Assembly (NCBI GenBank): GCA_945903545.1
Contig: CAMDOO010000037.1
Location: forward strand, 1-32,532
DNA: 32,532 nucleotides
Direction of reading: 5' to 3'
Origin: Opitutus sp. GAS368
GTDB taxonomy: Bacteria > Verrucomicrobiota > Verrucomicrobiia > Opitutales > Opitutaceae
Shown: one piece after another, positions 9,441 through 14,101 of the stretch
Layout of the letters: the number at the start of each line of letters is the position of its first letter
Position numbering within the stretch: position 1 is the first letter of the stretch
Position numbers and translations under genes: made by a program
Notes under the pieces: generated by a model
The model's database searches: none
Seen by the model: the letters and a program-made list of their open reading frames with translations, nothing else
What the model was told of the DNA's origin: nothing

Positions 9441-9674
9441 TCAGTTGCAGCCGCACCCGCTGCCCCCGACCCCCGCCCCGCCGGCCGAGCCTTCGCGGGA
9501 GAAAAGGATGTGCTCGGCAAAGACGGCGTCCAGCGGGGCGCGCCGGGGATTCATCAGCTCGTCGGCCAGGGTCGCACGTTCCCAGGGTTGCACGCGGACG
9601 GGCTGGAAAGTTGCACAACCCCCGAGGAGGAGGGCGGCGAGGAGGAGGGCGGCGGAGCGAAGGGGCGTTTCCAT
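9441..9674 (-). CDS. DUF4266 family lipoprotein
   Basis: The 77-residue exported lipoprotein has signal peptide METPLRSAALLLAALLLGGC with lipobox LGGC (Cys20). The mature part has VQPWERATLADELM, a run rich in acidic and Pro/Arg residues, EHILFSREGS, and a Gly-rich tail ending GGSGCGCN. This arrangement (W-E-R near the N-terminus, 'EH-x-x-F-S-x-E' and a GCGCN terminus) matches DUF4266 as I know it. The function is unknown; the family typically sits beside DUF3570, thioredoxin-like and ApbE genes, as here. The two tail Cys residues could bind metal or form a redox pair, possibly with the upstream thioredoxin. Its ATG lies one base after the tlpA-like stop, so it is translationally coupled. Confidence 0.85.
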   Translation of the reverse strand: METPLRSAALLLAALLLGGCATFQPVRVQPWERATLADELMNPRRAPLDAVFAEHILFSREGSAGGAGVGGSGCGCN

Positions 9675-9675
9675 G

Positions 9676-10176
9676 TCAGTTCTTTTCGGCGAGCAGGGCC
9701 TCGATGGCCTTCCGCAGGGCGGTTTCCGTGGGCTTGCCCCGGAAACCCTCGTGGATGCTGCGCAGTCGGCCGGCGCGATCGATGAGGTAACTGGTGGGCA
9801 TGGCCGGCACCTTGACCTCCCGGACGAGCCTTTGCTCATGGTCGCGGACAGTGTCGAATCCCGGCTTGAACCGCTTCACGAAGCTTTCGAAGTCAGCCGC
9901 CTTCTCGTCCACGCTGACGGCCACGATGACGAGGCCGCGCGCCCCATAATCCTGCTGGAGCCGGGTGAAGAATGGGAACGAATCCCGGCAGGGTGCGCAC
10001 CACGAGGCCCAGAAATCCACGAGCACGATCTTGCCGGCGGTGGCGGGCAGACCGCCGGTGAACGCGGCGGACTCCAGGGCGGGGAACGGCGCGCCAACCC
10101 GCACCTCGGCCCGCGCACCGGCGCAGAGGACAAGGCCGAGCAGGACGAGGGCACTGAGTCTGGGGTTGCTCTGCAT
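9676..10176 (-). CDS. TlpA-like periplasmic thioredoxin
   Basis: The 166-residue exported thioredoxin-fold protein has a signal peptide (residues 1-23, ending AGARA), then VLVDFWASWCAPCRDSFPFF with the active-site CAPC (Cys60 and Cys63). The cis-Pro loop is VPAMPTSYLID. Length and motifs fit TlpA/ResA-type reductases that act on periplasmic or membrane-anchored cysteines. In this operon the only obvious extracytoplasmic Cys-pair partner is the GCGCN tail of the DUF4266 protein, so that is a candidate substrate; this is inference. It lies 39 bp after the DUF3570 gene and one base before the DUF4266 gene. Confidence 0.92.
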   Translation of the reverse strand: MQSNPRLSALVLLGLVLCAGARAEVRVGAPFPALESAAFTGGLPATAGKIVLVDFWASWCAPCRDSFPFFTRLQQDYGARGLVIVAVSVDEKAADFESFVKRFKPGFDTVRDHEQRLVREVKVPAMPTSYLIDRAGRLRSIHEGFRGKPTETALRKAIEALLAEKN

Positions 10177-10215
10177 GGGATGGGGAGGGCGGCTTCAGGC
10201 GGCGGGGTTCGGGCC

Positions 10216-11382
10216 TTACCAGGAGAACTTGAGCCCGGCGCTCGTGATGACCGCCTGGCTGTAGGCGCTGGCCGGGGTGGCGCCGTCGCGCCCCTGCAGG
10301 TCGTAGTCCTTCCAGGCGGCATTGATCTCCAGGCGGTCGGACACCCGCCAGCTGACCTTCAGGCCGAGGGTCAGGCTGTCGAGAGCGGAGAGGCGGTAGT
10401 CGGAGGAATAGAACGGACCCTGCGGGCGGGGGGCGCCGAAGACGGGGACGATGGGAGTCTGGTCTAGATTGTAGTAATAGAAGCGGGCCGCATCCTGCCG
10501 GTACCAGCGCACGAGCGGCTCCAGCGTGACCCGCGATCCGACCCGCTGCAGCCAGGTGAGGCTCAGGGTGTGCGAGGCGATCCCGAAATTGTCGTGGAAA
10601 AAGCGGTAGGACCCCTCGAGCGCCGCCCTGACATCGGGGAAGGCGCGGTTGACGGTGGCGAGGGTGATCCATTTTTCCCGCCGGTCGGGCCGGTTCTCGG
10701 GGAAGGTGAGGGGCAGGAAAATCCCGGGCACGATCTCGGTGGCCTTCTGCACCAGCTTGTACTGGTCGTTCAGGTAGCCGTGGGCCCGGCTGAAGGTGAC
10801 GTTGAAGGAGACCGAGGTGCGCGGATCGAGGACCTGGGTGGCGCCGACGATGACATCCAGGGTGCGCTTGCCCAGCACGGGCGAAGGAAACTGGTAGAAC
10901 GCCTTGATGTCGTCCGTCGTCACGGCCGCCCCCGCGAGCAGGGTGGTGTTCTTCTGGTTGAAGTCCGTCAGCGTGTTGAGTGAGAAGGCCGTGGAGACAT
11001 AGTCGCCCTCGCGACTGTGGGCGACGCCGAGCGCGGCGTTGAGGCGGGGGAACTGCCGCGCCATCTCCGCGTTCCAGGCCTTGCGGCGTTCCGTGAGCGA
11101 GGTGAGCACGACCTGGTCGGAACCGGCCGGGGCGCGCTGGCCGTTCGGCGTGGCCCCGGCGATGGCGTCGATCACGCCGCCCACCCGGACCGTGGTCGCG
11201 GTGCCGATCGTCCCCTCGAGGAGGGCGCCCTGCGTCTGGACGCCGATGCGCCCGCCCGACTCCTGGTAGTCCTCGTACTTGTAGGAAACGGCGGCCTCGC
11301 CGCGTCCGGTCCGCGCGGTGCCGGCGACGAGGGCGAGGGTGGCCAGCAGCGATTGCAGGGTGGATCGGCGGGGCGGGGTCAT
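10216..11382 (-). CDS. DUF3570 outer-membrane beta-barrel protein
   Basis: The 388-residue protein has a signal peptide (about 1-30) and SYKYEDYQESGGRIGVQ at the mature N-terminus. Alternating hydrophobic/polar strands with frequent aromatic residues follow to the end, closing with LKFSW, a C-terminal aromatic as in outer-membrane barrels. This matches DUF3570. Residues 72-78 read DAIAGAT (codons 11169-11149), which fits the D-x-x-(S/T/A)-G-A-(T/S) pattern that ApbE uses to attach FMN to a Ser/Thr; Thr78 would be the acceptor. A second D-x-x-x-G-A-T (DVIVGAT) occurs mid-barrel and may be chance. An ApbE gene lies in the same cluster. The start at ATG 11382 is 6 nt after the stop of the Ig-like gene. 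Confidence 0.85.
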   Translation of the reverse strand: MTPPRRSTLQSLLATLALVAGTARTGRGEAAVSYKYEDYQESGGRIGVQTQGALLEGTIGTATTVRVGGVIDAIAGATPNGQRAPAGSDQVVLTSLTERRKAWNAEMARQFPRLNAALGVAHSREGDYVSTAFSLNTLTDFNQKNTTLLAGAAVTTDDIKAFYQFPSPVLGKRTLDVIVGATQVLDPRTSVSFNVTFSRAHGYLNDQYKLVQKATEIVPGIFLPLTFPENRPDRREKWITLATVNRAFPDVRAALEGSYRFFHDNFGIASHTLSLTWLQRVGSRVTLEPLVRWYRQDAARFYYYNLDQTPIVPVFGAPRPQGPFYSSDYRLSALDSLTLGLKVSWRVSDRLEINAAWKDYDLQGRDGATPASAYSQAVITSAGLKFSW

Positions 11383-11388
11383 GGGGCG

Positions 11389-12981
11389 TTACTGACCGTA
11401 GAATTCGAGGAGGGCGACCCCGGTTGTTTCGGCCGCGCCGCGGGCGGTGGCGAGATAAACCCCGGGCGGAAGGGTGATGAACATCATCGCGTCCTTGCTG
11501 GCAAGGTCGGTCAACGGAAAGGCGCTGGCTGCGGTGTTGGCCGCCACGAGGTCCGCGGTGCCGCCCCAGTTGTCGTTGCTGCCCAAGAACGCATTGCTGC
11601 CCGCCACGGTGAGGTCGAGCTGCGGGTCGGCCATCGACCCGGGGACGTTGTGGGGGATTAGCCCCGGACCGACTACCTTGATGAGCACGGTCTTGGCGGT
11701 TGATCCCGCGATGACGAAGCCGGCGACAAAAATATCGGCGCCGGTGCCGATCCGGCCGCGGAGGGAAAGCGCGTAAAGGTTGGCCGGGTTGTCCAGCCCG
11801 TAGAATTCAACCAGCGAAACCCCGGTGGTGTTGCCGACCCCGCTGGCGGTCGCGAGATAGACCCCGCTGGACAGGGTGCGCAGCATGACGGCATCGCGGG
11901 TCGTGGCATCGGCCAGCGGGAACGCCCCGGCCTCCGCGTTGGCCGCGATGAGGTCGGTGGCGCCGCCCCAGTTGTCATTGCCGCCGAGCGCGAGGTTGGA
12001 GCCGGCGACGGTCAAATCGAGCCGCGGGTCGGCCATCGCCCCGGGGACGCCGAGGGCGGCGATCCCCGGCCCGACCGACTTCACCAGGATCCGTCCGCCG
12101 GCGCCCTCGAGGACAAAGCCGACGACAAACACATCGGTCCCGGCGCCCACATTGCCCCGGAGGGACAAGGCGCGGATATCACCGCGCGAAGCGGAGGAGG
12201 CCAGCACGGTGACCGTGCCGGCATTGGTGGTGGCTGTGGCCCCGGCGGATGTCACCGCGCAGGTGTAGTTGCCGGAGTTGGCGCTGGTGACGCCGGACAG
12301 CACCAGCAGCGGGTTGGTTGCTCCCGGGATGGGGCCGCTTCCCGTCTTCGACCACTGGTAGGTCATGGAACCCGCCGCCGTCGCCGTCGCGGTCGCGAGC
12401 AAGGCGACCTTTTGGCCTGCCACCACGGTCACGCTCAGCGGATGCCCCGTGATCGTCGGGGGCGGCCCGGTGCCGGCGGAAGCGATGACAAAATTGATCG
12501 CGTTGAACACGCTGTCCGTGAGGCCCTGGGGGTTGAAGCCCTGCACCCGCACCGTGAAGCTGCCGGCCGTCGTGGGGGTTCCCGTGATCGCCGGTTTGCC
12601 CGACGGGATTGTGTTGCCCGTGGGAGCCGGCAGGAAACTCAGCCCCGGGGGAAGCGTCCCGGTGAAGATGAACTGCGACGGGGAAGTCGGGGTGCCCGTG
12701 TAGGTGAACGCGACCGACAGCGGCGTCCCCACGGTGCCGTTGACGGGGTTGCCCGGGCTTTGGGCGAAGGTGGTCGCCCCGGCCCGGGAATGCAGCGCGC
12801 CGAGTGCCCCGACGATCAGGGATGATCGCATCACAGTGCCGGCAGCCGGGCCCGGGAGGATTTGTCCGGCCAGGGACAGCAGCCGCGGGATGGGCAGGCG
12901 CTGCAGGAAGGCGACCAAGAGCAGTGCCGGGAAGCTGACGCGGTGACAGCGGACCAGGAAAGACGTGAGGACTCTCGGCAT
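11389..12981 (-). CDS. Exported Ig-like protein with two NDNWGG repeats
   Basis: The 530-residue secreted protein has a putative Ig-type domain at about residues 70-168 (SVAFTYTGTPTSPSQF, TLPPGLSF), an Ig-like domain at about 175-260 (TYQWSKTG, NSGNYTCAVTSAG), then two tandem repeats of about 128 residues each. Both repeats share R-A/Y-LSLRG, FVxGFV, KxVGPG, MADPxLDLTVAGSN, NDNWGG and GVYLAT followed by GVxLxEFYG. The same repeat occurs twice in the M64 peptidase at 22278. I know it as common in Verrucomicrobiota exported proteins, function unknown. Two starts are possible: ATG 12981, or ATG 12831 (MRSSLIVGALGALH), which gives a cleaner signal peptide. It is embedded between ApbE and DUF3570 genes, an unusual place for such a protein. 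Confidence 0.8.
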   Translation of the reverse strand: MPRVLTSFLVRCHRVSFPALLLVAFLQRLPIPRLLSLAGQILPGPAAGTVMRSSLIVGALGALHSRAGATTFAQSPGNPVNGTVGTPLSVAFTYTGTPTSPSQFIFTGTLPPGLSFLPAPTGNTIPSGKPAITGTPTTAGSFTVRVQGFNPQGLTDSVFNAINFVIASAGTGPPPTITGHPLSVTVVAGQKVALLATATATAAGSMTYQWSKTGSGPIPGATNPLLVLSGVTSANSGNYTCAVTSAGATATTNAGTVTVLASSASRGDIRALSLRGNVGAGTDVFVVGFVLEGAGGRILVKSVGPGIAALGVPGAMADPRLDLTVAGSNLALGGNDNWGGATDLIAANAEAGAFPLADATTRDAVMLRTLSSGVYLATASGVGNTTGVSLVEFYGLDNPANLYALSLRGRIGTGADIFVAGFVIAGSTAKTVLIKVVGPGLIPHNVPGSMADPQLDLTVAGSNAFLGSNDNWGGTADLVAANTAASAFPLTDLASKDAMMFITLPPGVYLATARGAAETTGVALLEFYGQ

Positions 12982-13105
12982 GAGGCGGGGGTGCTGGACA
13001 GCTTCGGAGCGGACGATATCGCGGACCTGAGACTTGATCCCGGTTTCGGGCGGGGAGATCGAGATCTAATCAGTAACTAGCCGGTAACAGCCACCTCCAA
13101 ACGGG

Positions 13106-14101
13106 TTAGGCCATGGCCAGGTATTGGTAGAATCCCCGGGTCTGGGCGCGGGAATCTTCCGCCACCAGCAGACCCTCGGCCCCGGGGCACGACTGGATGA
13201 ACTCGAGACCCCGGGGGACCCCCAGGACAAAGGCGGTCGTCGAGAGCACGCCGGCCTGAAGGCAGGTCCCGGCGATGACGGTGGCCTGGATGCACCCGTT
13301 TGCCACCGGCCGCCCGGTGCGCGGGTCGATGATGTGCCCGTAGCGCCGGCCCTCGGCGACAAATGAGCGCTGGTAGTCACCGGATGACGCAATGCCCCGG
13401 CCGCTTAGCCCGACACTTTCCCGACAAGTTCCCGGACGGAAGGGATCCTCCAGCCCGATGTGCCAAGCCGGCCGCCCCGGGGGCACGCCGAGCGCGCGCA
13501 GGTCGTGGCCAAAATCAACCAGGACCGCGGACAATCCTTGTTCGGTCGCCAACCGCGCCACCATGTCCACGGCGTACTCCTTCCCGAACCCGCCGAAGTC
13601 GAGCGCCATGCCCGCCATCGGCAGGAAAACCCGACCGGGCTCGCGTTTCACCTTGGCCCAGCCCACGAGGGAGAGAGCTTCGGCCATCTGCGTGTCAGAT
13701 GGCACCGTGGGAGGCTGCCGTTTCCAGTTCCAGAGTTGGATGACGGGCAGCGCCGTGGGGTCGAGCACTCCCTGGGTCATGAAGTGGAGCGTCTGGCAGA
13801 GTTCCAGCATGGCCTCCATCTCGGGATCGACGGGAACCCAGTCGCGACCGGCGGCGGCATTGATCCGGCTGAGCAGGCTTGTGGGCAGGAAACGGGAGTA
13901 CTTCGCTTCGAAGGCCTGCACCCAGGCGACCGCCGCGCGCTCGAAGGCCGCAGCCTGGACCTCGCCGGCCGGCGCCACGTACTGCACCTCGCAGGCCGTG
14001 GCCATCGCGTGGAAGGCAAGTTTCCTCAGGGGAAAGGCGTGCCCATCGCCAGCCTCGTCTGGCGCGGGTTGCGGCTGCAGGGGCTGGAACGGCGGAGTCA
14101 T
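13106..14101 (-). CDS. apbE: ApbE-like FAD:protein FMN transferase
   Basis: The 331-residue protein belongs to the family that transfers FMN from FAD to Ser/Thr of target proteins. Visible family features are AMATACEV near residue 32, LDFGGFGKEYAVD (168-179), LVDFGHDLRALG, a GDYQR segment and YGHIIDPRTGRPV (254-266), then VLSTTAFVLG. There are two oddities. There is no signal peptide or lipobox (the start reads MTPPFQPLQPQPAP), although many ApbE proteins are periplasmic lipoproteins. The usual Mg-ligand 'A-D-A-L-S-T' reads AGVLST, so Gly284 replaces the Asp while Thr288 is kept. This may be a subfamily trait or may reduce activity. It starts 9 nt after surE and heads the DUF3570/TlpA/DUF4266 cluster. 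Confidence 0.88.
   Translation of the reverse strand: MTPPFQPLQPQPAPDEAGDGHAFPLRKLAFHAMATACEVQYVAPAGEVQAAAFERAAVAWVQAFEAKYSRFLPTSLLSRINAAAGRDWVPVDPEMEAMLELCQTLHFMTQGVLDPTALPVIQLWNWKRQPPTVPSDTQMAEALSLVGWAKVKREPGRVFLPMAGMALDFGGFGKEYAVDMVARLATEQGLSAVLVDFGHDLRALGVPPGRPAWHIGLEDPFRPGTCRESVGLSGRGIASSGDYQRSFVAEGRRYGHIIDPRTGRPVANGCIQATVIAGTCLQAGVLSTTAFVLGVPRGLEFIQSCPGAEGLLVAEDSRAQTRGFYQYLAMA

Follow-up and report, generated by a model that had tools for sequence, protein, structure and literature searches.

The window analysed here is a stretch of 32,532 nucleotides of Opitutus sp. GAS368 (contig CAMDOO010000037.1), in which a DUF3570 gene belongs to a run of genes on one strand, transcribed in the order apbE, a gene for an Ig-like-domain protein of 530 aa, DUF3570, a thioredoxin-like gene and a DUF4266 gene (Table 1). 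The ApbE, thioredoxin-like and DUF4266 genes all lie inside positions 9441-14101, on the same strand as DUF3570, and the profile scores of the DUF3570 protein (PF12094, 224 bits against a gathering cut-off of 25) and of ApbE (PF02424, 245.6 bits against 25.6) bear out the presence of an ApbE in the same cluster, as claimed in an earlier note on this DNA. Translation of the DUF3570 reading frame likewise confirmed that the segment DAIAGAT, proposed in that note as a flavin attachment motif, spans Asp72 to Thr78. The DUF3570 protein begins with a signal peptide of about residues 1-28 (N-terminal hydrophobic segment of 2.07 on a hydropathy score), and by the same score the thioredoxin-like protein also has one (hydrophobic segment of 2.86). 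The product of the DUF4266 gene, whose start we infer to be an internal Met, is a small lipoprotein, and its CxC end is retained in all relatives shown.

Table 1. Features of the DUF3570 locus in the window
Feature	Position	Strand	Basis
DUF4266 small lipoprotein, LLGGC lipobox, GCGCN (CxC) end	9441..9674	-	PF14086 1.2e-19
TlpA/ResA-like thioredoxin, WCAPC active site	9676..10176	-	PF13905 4e-16; NCBIfam ResA-like matches
DUF3570 outer-membrane barrel (predicted), 388 aa	10216..11382	-	PF12094 E 3e-66; AlphaFold2; Foldseek and VIA
Candidate FMN-attachment motif D72-A-I-A-G-A-T78 of the DUF3570 protein	11149..11169	-	Translation; Ser/Thr acceptor in 76/76 relatives
Codon of the predicted acceptor Thr78	11149-11151	-	Translation
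530-aa protein with Ig-like domain, between apbE and DUF3570	11389..12981	-	PF13927 8.6e-09
Putative FMN transferase of the ApbE family, 331 aa, Glu175/Gly284 clade	13106..14101	-	PF02424 8.5e-73; alignment; tree
Gly284 codon of ApbE, metal/catalytic Asp position	13250..13252	-	Active-site alignment
Glu175 codon of ApbE, GKE for AKG	13577..13579	-	Co-variation with Gly284 (alignment)

Among relatives the usual gene order is DUF3570-apbE-Trx-DUF4266. In a sample of 76 non-redundant DUF3570 proteins, drawn from genomes of Verrucomicrobiota and from one Vibrio plasmid, apbE was present within the fetched stretch in 65 cases, mostly directly downstream of DUF3570, and in two genomes (G284 and G291) it was absent from the DUF3570 stretch and located elsewhere in the genome. 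One record that bears the title Proteobacteria bacterium WB5_2B_004 (L040) is probably mislabelled, since a search centred on it yields the same genomes as the phylum of the window. Since apbE directly follows DUF3570 in most relatives, the 530-aa Ig-like protein probably stands outside the core module. This protein contains two internal repeats, and the same separation of apbE and DUF3570 is found, as judged by spacing, in an Opitutales sister locus that is 88% identical (L032). Several genomes, for instance G170, G182, G558 and G723, have two complete or partial DUF3570 modules each; those of G558 lie side by side and are accompanied by thioredoxin and DUF4266 genes only, apbE being absent from the 16 kb that were read.

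Clusters of ApbE, DUF3570, thioredoxin-like and DUF4266 proteins, often accompanied by DsbD, were described by Meheust et al. 2021 in eLife (PMC8238504), who identified DUF3570 as an ApbE substrate. DsbD is thus frequent but not constant in the published clusters, and it is absent from the window, the single DsbD_TM match of the own genome being on contig C2. The plasmid of Vibrio sp. THAF191d (L045) shares with the window the Trx, DUF4266, DUF3570 and apbE genes, the last of the same type and also devoid of a detectable signal peptide, but they are arranged in a different order and DsbD is found in the same run; in a plasmid search, DUF3570 appeared in three near-identical Vibrio records only. 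No RNA families were found in the window by an Rfam search.

Conservation of the DAIAGAT segment in DUF3570 proteins

The minimal target motif of ApbE is D-x-x-[S/T]-G-A-[S/T] (PMC12052999), and the fit claimed for DAIAGAT in the earlier note turned out to be partial: Asp72, Gly76, Ala77 and Thr78 match positions 1, 5, 6 and 7, but position 4 is occupied by Ala75 and lacks the published Ser or Thr. By composition the bare pattern is weak evidence, given that D..[ASTV]GA[ST] appears in 0.9% of 20,000 residue shuffles of the DUF3570 protein and that the protein has two further GAT segments, DVIVGAT (176-182) and DGAT (366-369). It is conservation that sets DAIAGAT apart from these decoys. Both were rejected as FMN sites, the former because A181 is present in 3 and T182 in 35 of the 76 proteins, and the latter because it is not conserved among relatives.

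Conservation among homologues had been named as one way to check the idea, and a motif not conserved among DUF3570 proteins that co-occur with ApbE as a refutation. The idea withstood this check: in the alignment the acceptor column 78 holds Ser or Thr in all 76 DUF3570 proteins (Thr in 57, Ser in 19), including the 65 with apbE in the fetched stretch. The neighbouring positions are also well retained, with Gly76 in 73, Pro79 in 71, Ala77 in 66 (otherwise Ser in 6, Thr in 2 and Met in 2) and Asp72 in 65 proteins (otherwise Asn in 9 and Ser in 2). Position 4 of the motif is Ser in 46 of the 76, in agreement with the D-x-x-S-G-A-S/T segments that the earlier note gives for DUF3570 relatives, and Ala, Thr or Val in 16, 12 and 2, respectively.

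An experimental precedent comes from Chlorobium luteolum, whose DUF3570 protein is flavinylated with its cognate ApbE; ApbE-associated DUF3570s carry two conserved [S/T]GA[S/T] motifs, and flavinylation of the C. luteolum protein was abolished only when both motif serines were replaced (PMC8238504). The window protein shares with it the Pfam family, a motif of this general type and a described gene neighbourhood that includes apbE, a thioredoxin-like gene and DUF4266, but, compared by the published description, it has one conserved site instead of two and Ala at motif position 4 in place of [S/T]. The proposal that the DUF3570 protein itself is the flavoprotein of the module is therefore correct for the family, yet already published in principle, as flavinylation had been shown for the C. 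luteolum protein. For the window protein this precedent and the distribution of the matching ApbE clade, described below, support the same conclusion by analogy, and DAIAGAT is very probably the covalent FMN attachment site of an outer-membrane barrel, as in that relative.

A divergent group of DUF3570 proteins (L117, L128-L131) carries D-x-V-S-S-A-S at the place of the window motif, followed after some 14-17 residues by a second site, [S/T]-G-A-S. Only the first of the two is present in the window protein and in its clade.

The ApbE partner and the proposed place of flavin transfer

The window ApbE matches PDB sequences with E values down to 5e-33 and shares with the canonical periplasmic ApbE/Ftp proteins of V. 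cholerae, E. coli and T. pallidum, and with FmnB, the family and the conserved His, Ser and Lys, but it differs from them in having Gly for Asp and GKE for AKG, and in that no signal peptide or lipobox was found. The exchanged Asp (V. cholerae ApbE Asp285, FmnB Asp301, E. coli Asp280 and T. pallidum Asp284) is a metal ligand and, in V. cholerae ApbE, part of a Ser-His-Asp centre composed of Ser241, His257 and Asp285 (PMC12052999, PMC4767422, PMC5655446), and Ala substitutions of the Mg ligands of FmnB greatly reduced or abolished activity (PMC8906456). In the alignment, the window ApbE has Gly284 at this metal/catalytic position and Glu175 where Gly is the rule, while the Ser and His equivalents and Lys174 are retained. 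Because Glu175 falls two residues after a backbone metal ligand (Thr166 of E. coli ApbE, whose backbone oxygen binds the metal; PMC4767422), it could replace the lost carboxylate.

The two exchanges go together, as 70 of 101 ApbE rows have Glu175 with Gly284 and the other 31 combine Gly175 with one of Asp, Asn and Glu at position 284, with no mixed case. The 70 Glu175/Gly284 proteins form one clade (support 100/99), the Vibrio plasmid protein included, and are the ApbEs of single-site DUF3570s; two Glu/Gly ApbEs that had been entered as controls (L145 and L148) were considered as rule-breakers and rejected, since both directly adjoin a DUF3570 gene. When 37 Opitutaceae genomes were compared, an ApbE of the window type, with an identity of 52% or more to that of the window, was found in 18 of 18 DUF3570-positive and in 0 of 19 DUF3570-negative genomes, which are related and hence not independent observations; the best ApbE match among the latter had an E value of 1e-19. 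In some relatives the Ala of the DUF3570 motif is replaced by Ser, Thr or Met, as in DTITGST, DTITGTT and DSLTGMT, and given that these variant motifs (L035-L038, L010, L021, L100, L101, L105, L113) still adjoin a Glu/Gly ApbE, the clade may accept a wider target motif.

Export signals were assessed with a hydropathy score at a cut-off of 1.9, not with SignalP, applied for ApbE to the in-frame sequence of up to 70 residues upstream of the domain. No hydrophobic segment of at least 1.9 precedes the domain in any of the 70 clade members, the window ApbE among them, and the Vibrio plasmid ApbE has about 13 residues before its domain, whereas such a segment was found in all four ApbEs of the two-site DUF3570 group, which are of the canonical Gly/Asp type. 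Since 56 of the 76 DUF3570 proteins pass the same cut-off and 20 fall below it, the score misses some signal peptides; despite this, the contrast in predicted export signal between the two ApbE groups is clear. The simplest reading of these sequences is that the window ApbE would be cytosolic and would act on an exported protein before its export. A partial parallel is the ApbE of Klebsiella pneumoniae, cited in PMC12052999 as cytosolic (Bertsova 2014), which according to that citation also has no signal peptide and a dedicated partner, but which acts on a soluble fumarate reductase of the cytosol and not on an exported outer-membrane barrel as proposed here. For C. luteolum, the methods of PMC8238504 mention a signal-peptide-truncated cognate apbE for DUF2271 and a similar strategy for the C. 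luteolum protein, a wording that hints at an ApbE of the exported type.

Alternatively, the flavin could reach Thr78 in the periplasm through an exported ApbE of the canonical kind, and the Asp-less protein could be a regulator, a flavin-binding chaperone or an enzyme for another target. We consider this unlikely. It would account for a linked ApbE devoid of both catalytic Asp and signal peptide and would agree with the canonical, signal-bearing partners of the two-site group, and the own genome does encode two further ApbEs, one of the Gly/Asp type that adjoins an FMN_bind protein (G000:C9:11177-12252, L135), the other having Asn in place of the Asp (G000:C59:13966-14694, L136). However, in three DUF3570-containing genomes (G060, G269 and G291) the sole ApbE found is of the Asp-less type, which argues that any flavinylation of DUF3570 in these genomes is due to this type, and the Asp-less clade tracks DUF3570 across the Opitutaceae. 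The linked ApbE has moreover kept its other active-site residues, with the gain of Glu fixed together with Gly. As for the full cytosolic reading, namely that single-site DUF3570s are flavinylated before Sec export by the Asp-less clade with Glu as a metal ligand, we consider the case for and against it to be about evenly balanced.

Predicted barrel fold and position of Thr78

The AlphaFold2 model of the window DUF3570 protein, built from 71 sequences with the plasmid row left out, has a mean pLDDT of 94.3 and a pTM of 0.86 and shows 16 long strands following an N-terminal helix. Together with matches to solved outer-membrane barrels obtained with Foldseek and VIA, it supports the barrel assumption made in the earlier note. 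The VIA Z scores were 22.5 for BamA, 21.1 for PelB, 20.2 for a polysaccharide export barrel (4y25) and about 18-19 for the porin-like barrels CymA and OmpG; by sequence, no solved relative of DUF3570 was found up to E 1. A shared barrel fold shows no function, and what the modelled fold points to is a location in the outer membrane.

In the model, the segments between strands measure 2-4 residues after even strands and up to 37 residues after odd strands. The side of outer-membrane barrels that bears the long segments is usually the outside, so that the ends of the odd strands are placed there. Strand 3 (residues 63-79) thus ends on the outside, with Thr78 at this end and an outer loop of 13 residues after it. 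The hydropathy alternation in this strand makes the even residues, including Lys/Arg66, Asp72 and Thr78, the more polar side, which suggests that they face the barrel lumen. Outer strand thirds and outer loops hold 34 of the 45 most conserved DUF3570 columns, and the conserved FMN-carrying site would thus be situated where the lumen has its outer rim. In a model of one member of the two-site group (pLDDT 80), the first site is also at a strand end and the second is in the following outer loop, a low-confidence region.

It is highly improbable that DAIAGAT is conserved for barrel structure, as the outer end of strand 3 with its PTG turn, and not for modification, because even though conservation is as high or higher at many residues of the barrel's loop ends (Thr78 ranks 33rd of 388 columns) and the P-x-G after the motif is conserved as well, position 78 accepts Ser or Thr only, the motif fits ApbE targets, a member of the family needs its motif Ser residues for flavinylation (PMC8238504) and DUF3570 genes are linked to apbE.

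Proposed flavin loading and electron relay

We regard as quite probable a model in which the DUF3570 barrel carries FMN on Thr78, loaded before export by its dedicated ApbE, and terminates an electron relay at the cell surface. The barrel would be made as a Sec precursor, and the cytosolic, rearranged ApbE would use FAD of the cytosol as the FMN donor for Thr78 of the unfolded chain. Export and folding of the chain would then bring the FMN to the outer rim of the lumen, to serve as the surface end of a thiol/flavin relay. In this relay electrons would pass between an inner-membrane thiol system and the flavin by way of the periplasmic thioredoxin-like protein and the DUF4266 lipoprotein with its CxC tail, and in many relatives DsbD may feed it. 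Passage through the thioredoxin-like and DUF4266 proteins is suggested by the gene partnership and by the work of Meheust et al. 2021. Several points count against this model: the Ala at motif position 4, an ApbE that lacks the Asp needed in FmnB (PMC8906456), an absence of signal peptide that was judged by hydropathy only, and the absence of DsbD from the window.

As regards the literature searched, we found no description of the fold, the FMN place or the enzyme type of a flavinylated DUF3570, and two things seem to be new: a dedicated clade of ApbEs in which active-site residues are exchanged and export signals were not detected, and the prediction that the flavin sits on the outer rim of the barrel. 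If the model is true, bacteria would possess a flavin bound covalently to the outer rim of a barrel in the outer membrane, a heme-free electron route to the cell surface; if the cytosolic reading is also true, an exported outer-membrane protein would already bear its covalent cofactor when it crosses the inner membrane. The ApbE clade thereby raises the questions of how flavin is transferred in the absence of an Asp thought to be essential and whether a bulky covalent cofactor is placed on an outer-membrane protein before export. As for the substrate outside the cell, iron is a lead, on account of the VIT1 neighbours described by Meheust et al. 2021 (PMC8238504).

Some DUF3570 relatives (L003, L004, L005, L015, L022 and L027) carry, in the outer loop that follows strand 3, a long insertion of low complexity with a recurrent [K/R]-A-G-A-T that resembles the AGAT of the window motif and is possibly a second FMN site.
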